Origin: Bacteroidales bacterium
Lineage (GTDB): Bacteria > Bacteroidota > Bacteroidia > Bacteroidales > UBA932
Length of the DNA stretch: 64,000 bases
Direction: 5' to 3'
Assembly (NCBI GenBank): GCA_017546605.1
Contig: JAFYSH010000014.1
Coordinates: 1 to 64,000, forward strand
Shown in pieces: positions 48,051 to 52,162 of this stretch. Position numbers and translations under genes: made by a program. Each line of letters starts with the position of its first letter. The stretch's first letter is position 1. The notes beneath the pieces were generated by a model that saw only the letters and a list, made by a program, of their open reading frames with translations, was not told the DNA's origin and did no database searches.

Positions 48051-48072
48051 CAAGATGCTTGACTTTTCTGTG

Positions 48073-49089
48073 ATGAAAGATTCGGAAAAACGCCTTGTCT
48101 TACTTGTGGATGAGGTGGTTTATCGCTTGTATCCCAGTCTCTTCGAGGGAGAGACCTGTTTGCGAATCACAGCATCCGAACAAGAAAAAAATTGGAGTAC
48201 GGTTGCGAAGTTAATAGACCAATTGTTGGCGATGGAGGTTGATCGGAATACCTTCCTACTCGGTGTAGGGGGGGGTGTAACGACGGATCTATGTGGATTT
48301 GTGGCTTCAATTTATAAACGAGGCATTTCTTTTGGTTTTGTTCCGACCACCTTATTGGCGATGGTGGATGCTTCAATTGGAGGAAAGAACGGCATCAATT
48401 GGGGACTTTGCAAGAATGAGGTGGGGTTGATTCGGATGCCAGAACAAATACTCTTGGATTTGGATTTCTTGCGGACCTTGCCGGTGAAGGAGTTTTACAG
48501 TGGTGTTGCTGAATTGCTCAAGGTATTTTTATTGGCAGACCGGGATAGTTATGCAGTGGCGATGGATTTGTTCAAGCGGGTTCCGGATCCGTCCGTTTTG
48601 TTGGATGGAACTGATCGACAACGTTTTGAGGAACTGGTACAGGAGGCAATTCGGATCAAAGAACGGATCGTGGGACAAGATACATACGAGGCCGGGCCCC
48701 GAAGGTTGTTGAATTTTGGTCATACCTTGGGACATGCTTTGGAACTGATCTTGGAGGAGGAAGGACTTGGCTGTACACATGGCCAGGCAGTAGCTTGGGG
48801 TATGGTGCAGATGGTTCGTTGGTCGGTTCGCCGGGTAGGCCTTGCACAAACGACGGCCATGCAGCTTGTTTCCGATTTTCGATCGGTGGGATTGCCGGTT
48901 GATTGGCAAGATCTGGGATTGGATATGCCGGCATTGCTGCGGGTAAAAAAGAAGATGGCATCGGTCTTGTGTCAGGATAAAAAGCGGGAGGGAGATGCGT
49001 TGCATATGGTGCTCTTGAAAGAGATGGGCATTCCCGTTGTACTCCGCATTCCTTTGACCGAAGTGGAAGAATTATTGGATCGCTTATAA
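48073..49089 (+). CDS. aroB: 3-dehydroquinate synthase
   Basis: This 338-residue NAD- and zinc-dependent enzyme makes the carbocyclic ring of the shikimate pathway. Characteristic sequences are GVGGGVTTDLCGFVASIYKRG (NAD site), TTLLAMVDASIGGKNGIN (near residues 95-112), and the metal ligands in FGHTLGHALE with His later in THGQAVAWGM. The ATG at 48073 leaves room for a 5' leader after the -7 element. The upstream ATG at 48055 would add six residues. The N-terminus is shorter than in many homologues (usually about 350-370). First gene of aroB-aroDA-aroC. Confidence 0.94.
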   Translation: MKDSEKRLVLLVDEVVYRLYPSLFEGETCLRITASEQEKNWSTVAKLIDQLLAMEVDRNTFLLGVGGGVTTDLCGFVASIYKRGISFGFVPTTLLAMVDASIGGKNGINWGLCKNEVGLIRMPEQILLDLDFLRTLPVKEFYSGVAELLKVFLLADRDSYAVAMDLFKRVPDPSVLLDGTDRQRFEELVQEAIRIKERIVGQDTYEAGPRRLLNFGHTLGHALELILEEEGLGCTHGQAVAWGMVQMVRWSVRRVGLAQTTAMQLVSDFRSVGLPVDWQDLGLDMPALLRVKKKMASVLCQDKKREGDALHMVLLKEMGIPVVLRIPLTEVEELLDRL

Positions 49090-49103: not shown

Positions 49104-51146
49104 ATGATTTGTATCAGTTTGGGCAATAAGGGGATGGATGCTATCATGGCATCACTTCGCCTTTGTGAAGAGTTCGAGGAAGAAGTGCGTTTGCGTTATG
49201 GCGTGGCACTGGCCGTGGAAATCCGGATCGATATGTCGGAGTTGGAGGATGAAGAGGTCCAGACCGTTTTTCAGTCCACCCATCTTCCGTTGGTGGCTAC
49301 TTGTCGTACGACTTCCCGCTACGATGAGCAAGCCAAACGTCGTTTGCTGATCAAAGCAATGGATGCTGGCGCCTCGTTCATCGATATGGATATGGATGCT
49401 GCCCAACACATTTTTGCCGAAGTGCAACGTTATGCTCGGCGAAAAGGAGTCAAGGTGATCGCTTCTTACCACAATTTCCGTGAGACACCGACTCGAGAGG
49501 AGTTGATGGCAGCCGTGAAACGGGCTGTGAAAATGAAGGCTGATATCGCCAAGGTGGTGGCCAAGGAAGAGACGGTAGCGGATTGTGAGCGGGTTCTTTC
49601 CCTTTATGAAGAGAATGAGTTTTTGGAAAAAGCAAGGATCAAACTCATCGCCTTCTCGATCGGACGCTTGGGAAGTTATACCCGCATGGAGGCGCATCGG
49701 CACGGGGCTCCCTTGATGTATTTGAGCTTGGATGAGACCTCCCGAACAGCAGAAGGACAGCTGCATTTTTCACAGTTTAAAACCTTGACTCCGTCCAAAC
49801 ACGTGGCAGGATCGGTTCAGATCCCGACCTCCAAGAGTGTGATGCAGCGGGCGATTTTATCAGCTGCCATGGCTCGGGGTAAGAGTGTGTTTGAGAATTT
49901 CTGTACCTGTGACGATGTCAATGCTGCACTGGGAATTGCCAAACAATTCGGGGCAACGGTAGAGGTAGAAGGCAGCCGTTTGCAAATTACTGGGATCCGT
50001 TTTCCAAAGGACGTACAGTTGCTATCCCCGCATTTGAGTTGTCAGGGCATCCCAGGAATGACTCCAGGAGCCATTATTGCCCCCCAGACGCTGAATCTTT
50101 TTGTGGGAGAATCGGGTCTTTTGTCAAGAATTTCCATTCCCATTGCTGCTCAGATAGGGCAAGGGGTGACCATTACCGGAGAGGGAAGCTTGTTGCGCCG
50201 GGAGATGTACGGATGCAAGGAGGCTCTGGAAACCTTTGGAGCCAAGTGCTTGTTGTCGAATACGGAAACCTTGCCGGCCTTGGTGAGTGGTCCCTTGTCA
50301 GGCGGGAACTATACGCTTTCTGGAAGGAAAGGTTCGCAATTGATTTCTGGGCTGTTGATGGCCTTGCCGCTTTCCAAGAAAGATAGCACGTTGATCGTAG
50401 AGGAAGCTACCAGTGTTCCTTATATTCTGTTGACTCTGTATACCATTCGCAAGTTTGGAATCAATATCTCATTCAAGCGCGTTGAGGATCGTTTGATCTT
50501 TAAGATACCGGGTAAGCAACAATACAAGCCTTGTGCTATGAGTCTGGAAGGAGACTGGAGTTCCGCCTCAAATTTCTTTGTAGCTGCCGCTATTTTTGGG
50601 GATATTTTGGTAAAGGGCTTGGATACGAAGTCCTACCAGGCCGATCGGGTAATCCTGGATATCTTGAAAACTTGCGGTGCTCGCATTTCAAAGAGCCGTT
50701 TTGGTGTACGTGTGCGTTATGGTCGTCTTCGTGCCTTTGAGTATGATGCCACCCATTCCCCCGACCTGTTCCCGATTTTAACTGTCTTGGCTGCGTTTTG
50801 TGAGGGTCGGAGCGTCTTGTATGGGGTGAATCGTCTGATCAATAAAGAAAGCAATCGCGCCGATGCCATTTATCACGAGTTTCGGAAGATGGGTATGGAG
50901 ATCTCGATTGATGGGGACCGGATGGAGATCCAGGGAATGTCACTGGTGCGTCGGATCATGAGTGGAAACTTGTTGGTAGGCGGTAGTTTCTCGACACGAT
51001 CGGATCATCGGATAGCCATGGCTTTGCAAGTAGCAGCCTTGGGTTGCAGTGGTTTGGTAGAGTTGGATGATACCAAGTGCATTGCAAAATCGTTTCCCCG
51101 TTTTGAAGAACTCTTTACTCCGTTAATTGGATTTTTAGGCAAATAA
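49104..51146 (+). CDS. Fused 3-dehydroquinate dehydratase / EPSP synthase (AroD-AroA)
   Basis: This 680-residue fusion covers shikimate steps three and six. Residues 1-225 are a type I dehydroquinase with His123 (SYHNF) and the Schiff-base Lys150 (ADIAK). Residues 227-680 are EPSP synthase with Lys244-Ser245 (PTSKS), Arg342, Arg366, Asp554 (HSPDLFP), Glu582 and Arg585 (KESNR), Asp634-His635-Arg636 (SDHR) and Lys662 (AKSFP). The phosphoenolpyruvate loop reads GESGLLSRI instead of GNAGTAMRP. About 25-30 extra residues appear before it (about 298-330). No frameshift is seen, so this is one reading frame. Overlap of one base with aroC. Confidence 0.9.
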   Translation: MICISLGNKGMDAIMASLRLCEEFEEEVRLRYGVALAVEIRIDMSELEDEEVQTVFQSTHLPLVATCRTTSRYDEQAKRRLLIKAMDAGASFIDMDMDAAQHIFAEVQRYARRKGVKVIASYHNFRETPTREELMAAVKRAVKMKADIAKVVAKEETVADCERVLSLYEENEFLEKARIKLIAFSIGRLGSYTRMEAHRHGAPLMYLSLDETSRTAEGQLHFSQFKTLTPSKHVAGSVQIPTSKSVMQRAILSAAMARGKSVFENFCTCDDVNAALGIAKQFGATVEVEGSRLQITGIRFPKDVQLLSPHLSCQGIPGMTPGAIIAPQTLNLFVGESGLLSRISIPIAAQIGQGVTITGEGSLLRREMYGCKEALETFGAKCLLSNTETLPALVSGPLSGGNYTLSGRKGSQLISGLLMALPLSKKDSTLIVEEATSVPYILLTLYTIRKFGINISFKRVEDRLIFKIPGKQQYKPCAMSLEGDWSSASNFFVAAAIFGDILVKGLDTKSYQADRVILDILKTCGARISKSRFGVRVRYGRLRAFEYDATHSPDLFPILTVLAAFCEGRSVLYGVNRLINKESNRADAIYHEFRKMGMEISIDGDRMEIQGMSLVRRIMSGNLLVGGSFSTRSDHRIAMALQVAALGCSGLVELDDTKCIAKSFPRFEELFTPLIGFLGK

Positions 51147-52162
51147 TGAATCAGTTTGGACGTCTCTTTCGTGTACATTGTTTTGGCTCATCACACGGCC
51201 CGTTCATTGGGGTAATGATCGATGCTCCGAAGCCGGGCATGGATCTTTGTGTGGCAGATTTCGATCAGGCATTGCTTCGGCGTCGTGGGGGTGTTCTGGG
51301 GACGACCTCCCGAGTAGAATCGGATCAGCCGAACTTGATTTCAGGTTGGGCGGATGGCAGGACAACCGGTGCTCCGTTGACCCTTCTTTTTGAAAATCAG
51401 CATCAACGTTCGGGGGATTATCAACCCCTGGAGGCTTTCTATCGTCCGGGTCACGCCGATTGGACAGCCCAGGTAAAGTATCAGGGCTATCAAGAAAAAG
51501 CTGGAGGTGGAATATTCTCAGGCCGGATGACCTTGGCCTTGGTTGCGGCAGGGGTTGTTGCGAAAAAGCAATTGCTTCCGCAAATCCGAATTCATGCCCG
51601 TCTGGTGGAGGTGGGAGGAGTGTCGGTAGAAAATGAGCACGATCCTCAAATTGAAGCGATCATGTTAACTTGCCGCGAAGCGGGTGATGCTGTAGGTGGC
51701 ATCGTGGAGTGTTGTTGTGAAGGCGTTCCTGCGGGTTGGGGCGAGCCCTTTTTTGATTCCGTTGAGTCGCTGATCGCGCATGCTGTCTTTTCCATCCCGG
51801 GTGTTCGTGGGATTGAATTTGGAGATGGTTTTAGCGCAGCCAGGATGAAGGCATCGCAACACAATGACCGCTATGTGGGACCCAATGGACAGACCGATAA
51901 GAATGGGGCTGGAGGAATCAATGGAGGCATTACCAATGGAAATCCCCTCGTTTTTCGGGTTGCTTTCAAGCCGACCAACAGCATTGAAATGATTCAATCC
52001 ACTTGGAACCATGAGACTCAAGAGATGGCTCCGCTACAAATAAAAGGACGGCACGATACGTGTTTCGCTTTGCGTACCCCGGTCGTTGTGGAAAGCGTCG
52101 CTGCGATGGTGTTAGCGGATTTGCAATTGCTTAGCGGGTGCGGTAACACATGTAGTCGGTAA
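51146..52162 (+). CDS. aroC: Chorismate synthase
   Basis: This FMN-dependent enzyme of 338 residues makes chorismate from EPSP, the last common step to aromatic amino acids. The start (NQFGRLFRVHCFGSSHG), RRRGGVLGTTSRVESDQP, the HADWTAQVKYQG segment and GGIFSGRMTLA are family signatures. Its stop-side overlaps the convergent polyprenyl synthase by 32 bp. It follows the AroD-AroA gene with a shared TAATG, which suggests translational coupling. Confidence 0.95.
   Translation: MNQFGRLFRVHCFGSSHGPFIGVMIDAPKPGMDLCVADFDQALLRRRGGVLGTTSRVESDQPNLISGWADGRTTGAPLTLLFENQHQRSGDYQPLEAFYRPGHADWTAQVKYQGYQEKAGGGIFSGRMTLALVAAGVVAKKQLLPQIRIHARLVEVGGVSVENEHDPQIEAIMLTCREAGDAVGGIVECCCEGVPAGWGEPFFDSVESLIAHAVFSIPGVRGIEFGDGFSAARMKASQHNDRYVGPNGQTDKNGAGGINGGITNGNPLVFRVAFKPTNSIEMIQSTWNHETQEMAPLQIKGRHDTCFALRTPVVVESVAAMVLADLQLLSGCGNTCSR

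Follow-up and report, generated by a model that had tools for sequence, protein, structure and literature searches.

A lineage-specific, apparently undescribed fusion of type I dehydroquinase and EPSP synthase in a family of Bacteroidales

Why should a single protein carry the third and sixth steps of the shikimate pathway? Fused enzymes mostly catalyse successive steps, and channelling is the usual explanation. In the window, by which we mean the whole stretch of 64,000 nucleotides of Bacteroidales contig JAFYSH010000014.1 that was analysed, a first-pass annotation had read the enzymes of steps 3 and 6 as a single protein encoded between aroB and aroC, and this reading stands: the forward-strand gene at 49104..51146 is a single ORF of 680 residues with no internal stops that matches two Pfam families. 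A type I 3-dehydroquinase domain (AroD) occupies about residues 1-226 (49104..49781; DHquinase_I, 3.6e-35) and an EPSP synthase domain (AroA, or EPSPS) about residues 227-680 (49782..51143; EPSP_synthase, 3.7e-77). On the same strand, aroB (48055..49089; 344 aa; DHQ_synthase 9e-40, DHQS_C 4.1e-28), which encodes 3-dehydroquinate synthase of step 2, ends 14 bases upstream, and aroC (51146..52162; Chorismate_synt 5.8e-103), encoding chorismate synthase of step 7, begins at the final base of the stop codon of the fusion, a one-base overlap (TAATG). Because of this spacing and overlap, aroB, the fusion and aroC very probably form one operon. The reading would be refuted if the chain were split in the cell, but the sequence around the junction gives no sign of this: a GGAGG motif lies upstream of the fusion start at 49104, whereas the junction has no in-frame ATG, and its two TTG and GTG codons lack a Shine-Dalgarno-like motif. 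The exception is one genus, g18, in which the gene itself is cut.

A fused frame in a fragmented assembly that is 87% complete might be thought an assembly or frameshift artefact. However, a same-genus relative carries a fusion 80% identical to the window protein and 44 further genomes of the family also hold it as one ORF, with single-contig genomes (G004, G011 and G077) among the 46, and the chance of an artefact is therefore negligible. Searching for the two-domain architecture across Bacteroidales, as the first-pass annotation had proposed, reveals a family-level trait and not a single oddity: within a sample of 100 genomes of the family, dehydroquinase and EPSP synthase share one chain in 46 genomes and 14 of the 26 sampled genera. 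Fusions were counted from our own ORF calls only, not from the open-frame lengths given by the search tool, and one of the 46 fused ORFs is truncated by a contig end. Two candidates from the open-frame column (G043, 697; G884, 677) proved to be separate genes in our own calls. A fifteenth genus, g18, has the fused gene interrupted by an insertion, and the remaining genera of the family keep aroD and aroA separate. Across the order, a type I dehydroquinase match was found in 64 of 247 sampled genomes, mostly as a stand-alone protein of about 210-240 aa, and the only AroD-EPSPS fusion found outside the family is in a genome of another Bacteroidales family (G539). Type I dehydroquinase is rare in a phylum sample of 296 genomes, where the fusions examined were AroD-AroE or AroB-AroD-AroE. 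In a sample of the class, matched at a strict threshold, the AroA proteins from outside the order were of ordinary length, the single exception in the open-frame column being G884, whose genes are separate. A scan of named genomes gave one relative, a Bacteroidales MAG from yak rectum, and a plasmid search gave no match spanning most of the AroD-AroA protein. A described family found throughout Bacteroidota would have refuted the first-pass annotation, but this is not what we see: the fusion is restricted, no report of it was found in the open-licence papers searched, and the family libraries searched contain no model for the two-enzyme architecture. We conclude that the AroD-AroA fusion is real, lineage-specific and apparently undescribed; such proteins are probably filed in sequence databases under the name of only one of the two enzymes.

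The trees bear on how often the fusion arose. In the EPSPS tree 49 family sequences (46 fused, 3 split) fall in one clade with SH-aLRT 100, so that a single origin within the family is well supported on this phylogeny. The dehydroquinase tree, which is shorter and weaker, agrees; it needs two changes, and one clade is not rejected (p-AU 0.855). G539 may have fused independently, though placing its sequence in one clade with the family fusions is not rejected (p-AU 0.344).

Are both halves of the protein equipped for catalysis? The dehydroquinase half matches PF01487 over residues 37-226 with 122.6 bits against a gathering score of 22.2. Its 96.3 bits on the NCBIfam aroD model (TIGR01093) lie under the cut-off of 139.3, so it is not an NCBI aroD equivalog and we class it, by these scores, as a divergent member of the Pfam type I family. 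Catalytic His123 (codon at 49470), Schiff-base Lys150 (codon at 49551) and substrate-binding Arg194 are the equivalents of E. coli H143, K170 and R213, and all three are invariant in the 32 of 32 aligned fusions. The window protein additionally keeps the equivalents of E46, R48, R82 and Q236 (E. coli numbering); that of S232 is Thr, and that of E86 is not conserved across the lineage. In genera g7 and g3 some side residues are gone (R82 and Q236 equivalents), and the dehydroquinase half may be weakened there, for which Candida Aro1 offers a parallel, with only four of five domains active (PMC9074039). The window genome has one type I dehydroquinase, its only known source of the activity, and no type II enzyme was found in this 87% complete assembly. 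Elsewhere in the family, one fusion (G010, L062:4166-6601) has an insert of about 75 residues in the dehydroquinase half, for a total of 811 aa.

EPSP synthase is the target of glyphosate, and the half of the fusion that bears it matches PF00275 and exceeds the NCBIfam aroA cut-off (TIGR01356; 297.1 bits versus 287.25, over residues 236-672). Its active-site residues are Lys244 (codon at 49833), Asp554, Glu582, Arg585, Arg636 and Lys662. In E. coli EPSPS numbering, all the S3P- and PEP-binding residues (K22, S23, R27, R100, R124, D313, E341, R344, R386 and K411) are present, and S170, Q171, S197, Y200, K340 and H385 are kept as well. S169 is Gly in the window protein, and N94E, T97L and N336R are common to most aligned Bacteroidales copies. 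The fold agrees, with E. coli EPSPS 3fk0 as the top Foldseek match (E 3.7e-38; TM 0.90 by target length). Against the same-genus copy, pN/pS is 0.215 and 0.16 for the two halves with synonymous sites saturated, and by this measure purifying selection acts on both.

AlphaFold2, run on the fusions' alignment, returns a mean pLDDT of 92 and a pTM of 0.90 with a confident junction, which predicts a rigid placement of the two domains relative to each other. The junction in the window protein is 23 residues long, reaching from the Gln of the dehydroquinase lid to the Ser-Lys-Ser motif of EPSPS and including EPSPS strand 1; in relatives its length ranges between about 21 and more than 50 residues. 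Since EPSP synthase is monomeric whereas type I dehydroquinases form dimers, the fusion would be expected to dimerise, probably via its dehydroquinase halves.

Taking together what can be read directly from the DNA (the fusion, its active sites, its distribution, the gene orders and the places of aroE and aroK), we put a probability of roughly 0.8 on the following explanation as a whole: that the aroB-aroDA-aroC operon encodes a bifunctional enzyme which originated by the exit of aroE and aroK from the cluster and a subsequent fusion. The N-terminal type I dehydroquinase would convert dehydroquinate to dehydroshikimate, separate AroE and AroK encoded elsewhere would make shikimate 3-phosphate, and the C-terminal domain would then make EPSP for AroC. 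We infer that both activities are present and that the two active sites work independently. Neither domain's product is the other's substrate, so direct channelling between them is impossible and AroE and AroK must act in between. The covalent link would give equal amounts of both enzymes and probably a fixed dimer via the dehydroquinase half.

A natural replacement offers indirect support for two real activities. Type II dehydroquinase (PF01220, aroQ) was found in 3 of 45 family genomes tested, 39 of which carry a fused or split gene. The fusions in these three genomes (G034, G051 and G091) have lost EPSPS residues, e.g. K411R, a changed S197 and Y200H, and no longer adjoin aroB and aroC; a separate aroB-aroC-aroQ-aroA cluster is present, with aroQ beside a stand-alone aroA. 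Another genome of the same genus (G066) has a similar cluster and a mere trace match to the type I dehydroquinase. Where the fusion is in decay, other genes thus provide both a dehydroquinase and an EPSP synthase; this correlation, which is not proof, is what one would expect if the fusion normally supplies both enzymes.

Two other views of the protein's function deserve consideration. One half, most likely the dehydroquinase, could be dead or weak, leaving what is in effect a long EPSP synthase, as the low aroD score, the unconserved E86 equivalent and the lost side residues of g7 and g3 might suggest. But the invariance of the catalytic His, Lys and Arg, and the lack of any second dehydroquinase found in the window genome at its 87% completeness, make this quite improbable. 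It is also conceivable that the fused chain acts as a scaffold, with AroE and AroK docking between the domains in a non-covalent, AROM-like assembly that passes intermediates along. The rigid arrangement predicted with pTM 0.90, the retention of the fusion in 14 genera and the repeated fusion of shikimate enzymes in relatives all fit such a scaffold, yet aroE and aroK lie outside the operon, the variable junction speaks against strict geometry, and g18 tolerates a cut within EPSPS; we consider docking improbable. In its strongest form, in which AroD-AroA is the core of the assembly, free AroE and AroK bind between its domains and this covalent joining of steps 3 and 6 orders the whole middle of the pathway, the proposal seems to us a long shot. 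We therefore retain the bifunctional enzyme with independent sites as the preferred reading.

If the two sites do not cooperate, how did steps 3 and 6 come to be joined? The first-pass annotation was right that the enzymes are not consecutive, but no special biochemical reason is needed for the skipped steps, since relatives have aroE, with or without aroK, between aroD and aroA, and the middle genes lie elsewhere in fused genomes. In unfused relatives, aroE stands between aroD and aroA (G039, G007, G559, G568, G520 and G604) or a fused aroE-aroK does (G001, G009, G047, G076, G025, G029, G398 and G531). Writing each aro gene by its letter, the relatives' orders include B-D-EK-A, D-E-A-C, B-D-E-A-C (complete and in pathway order in G568 and G604) and an unfused B-D-A-C, which occurs in G043 of the same family and in G408 and G421 of other families and is, judged by gene order, a natural intermediate. 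The positions of aroE and aroK were checked in 28 fused genomes of the family, and in every one these genes either occupy a different contig from the fusion or are separated from it by 80 kb or more. In the window genome they share contig C22, where aroK precedes aroE by about 6 kb and lysS and spoU lie in the interval. The same arrangement recurs in other fused genomes; spoU-aroE is also present in genus g26, which has the unfused B-D-A-C. The most likely route, whose order of steps is inferred, starts from an ancestral B-D-E-(K)-A-C cluster arranged as in the pathway: aroE and aroK left for other sites, aroD thereby came to adjoin aroA, and the two then fused, probably once in the family. 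The direction could also have been the opposite, with aroA, instead of the middle genes, on the move: coming in beside aroD from a B-D-C cluster, with fusion afterwards. Among the 20 unfused loci read across the order Bacteroidales, B-D-C without aroA is the commonest arrangement (8 of 20, versus 6 with aroE between aroD and aroA), and the tree does not fix the direction; we nevertheless think this second route unlikely, as aroE or aroE-aroK intervenes in most of the family's unfused genera in which aroD and aroA have stayed together.

The locus has taken other turns in related genomes. In g18 an ORF of about 300 aa, encoding an EamA-family transporter, interrupts the AroD-AroA gene within EPSPS, about 60 residues into that domain (L048:2961-5835 in G053, L049:773-5355 in G036 and L050:4525-7766 in G017). 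The first half keeps KSxxxR and the second PDL, GKESDR, DHR and the Lys; pN/pS of the halves is about 0.29-0.43 with synonymous sites near saturation, and they look to be under purifying selection. Neither G053 nor G036 was reported to have another EPSPS, and we regard g18 as a candidate case of an EPSP synthase made naturally as two chains. Second, diverged pairs of aroB and an AroD-AroA-like gene occur in G015, G079 and G016 (L092:2847-5826, L093:2596-5564 and L127:4573-7496). Their frames are open and their EPSPS active-site residues lost; the dehydroquinase His, Lys and Arg are kept in L092 and L093, and the His and Lys are not kept in L127. These second copies have possibly been repurposed. 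An apparent three-enzyme AroD-AroA-AroC ORF of 973 aa (G067, L126:1863-4784) is likely a sequencing or assembly slip: there are six consecutive A at its junction, where one extra A would create a stop immediately ahead of aroC, similar to the situation in the sister locus L029. Locus L122 offers no proof of such a fusion, its bases between A and C being unknown.

What does such a protein tell us about enzyme fusions? It is a stable, old fusion that skips two steps, and, judging from gene orders in relatives, it seems to have come about as a side effect while a pathway-ordered cluster shrank, which makes AroD-AroA a useful counter-example to the channelling view. Across relatives, one locus displays the unfused cluster, aroD and aroA as neighbours, their fusion, decay of the fused gene accompanied by replacement, and EPSPS split secondarily. 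With all these stages visible, how a fusion is born and lost is open to direct study.

The cluster's other fusions in relatives comprise AroD-AroE, AroE-AroK, AroD-AroE-AroK, AroB-AroD and AroB-AroD-AroE. Among them are an AroD-AroE-AroK chain of 665 aa with steps 3-5 in pathway order (L051:4942-6939, G008) and AroB-AroD fusions of 553 and 569 aa in genus g22 (L168:2888-4549 and L169:2132-3841), all in the same family, and an AroB-AroD-AroE chain of 878 aa from the same phylum (L038:676-3312, G382). AroD-AroE and AroE-AroK fusions have been described in prokaryotes, and the AroD-AroE bifunctional enzyme is found in plants as well as in Planctomycetes, Acidobacteria and some archaea (PMC11237513); multi-domain EPSPS has been termed rare in bacteria (PMC9394408). 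Like AroD-AroE, the window protein is a two-enzyme shikimate fusion with an N-terminal type I dehydroquinase, but AroD-AroE pairs it with the enzyme that follows, of step 4, and here the partner acts at step 6. The window protein is not itself an AroD-AroE fusion, as it lacks a Shikimate_dh_N match and aroE lies on contig C22. TyrA-AroA (NF011381) and AroA-Cmk (NF008816) are likewise bacterial two-enzyme chains with AroA, but with other partners, and the window protein falls far short of their cut-offs (142.7 versus 902 and 184.4 versus 943). The fungal pentafunctional AROM, or Aro1, has the domain order DHQS-EPSPS-SK-DHQase-SDH and so also holds EPSPS and type I dehydroquinase in one chain, but it has five domains with EPSPS ahead of the dehydroquinase. 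The fusion described here has only two, in the reverse order and with no kinase between, and thus, as first proposed, its build differs from both the plant AroD-AroE enzyme and fungal AROM.
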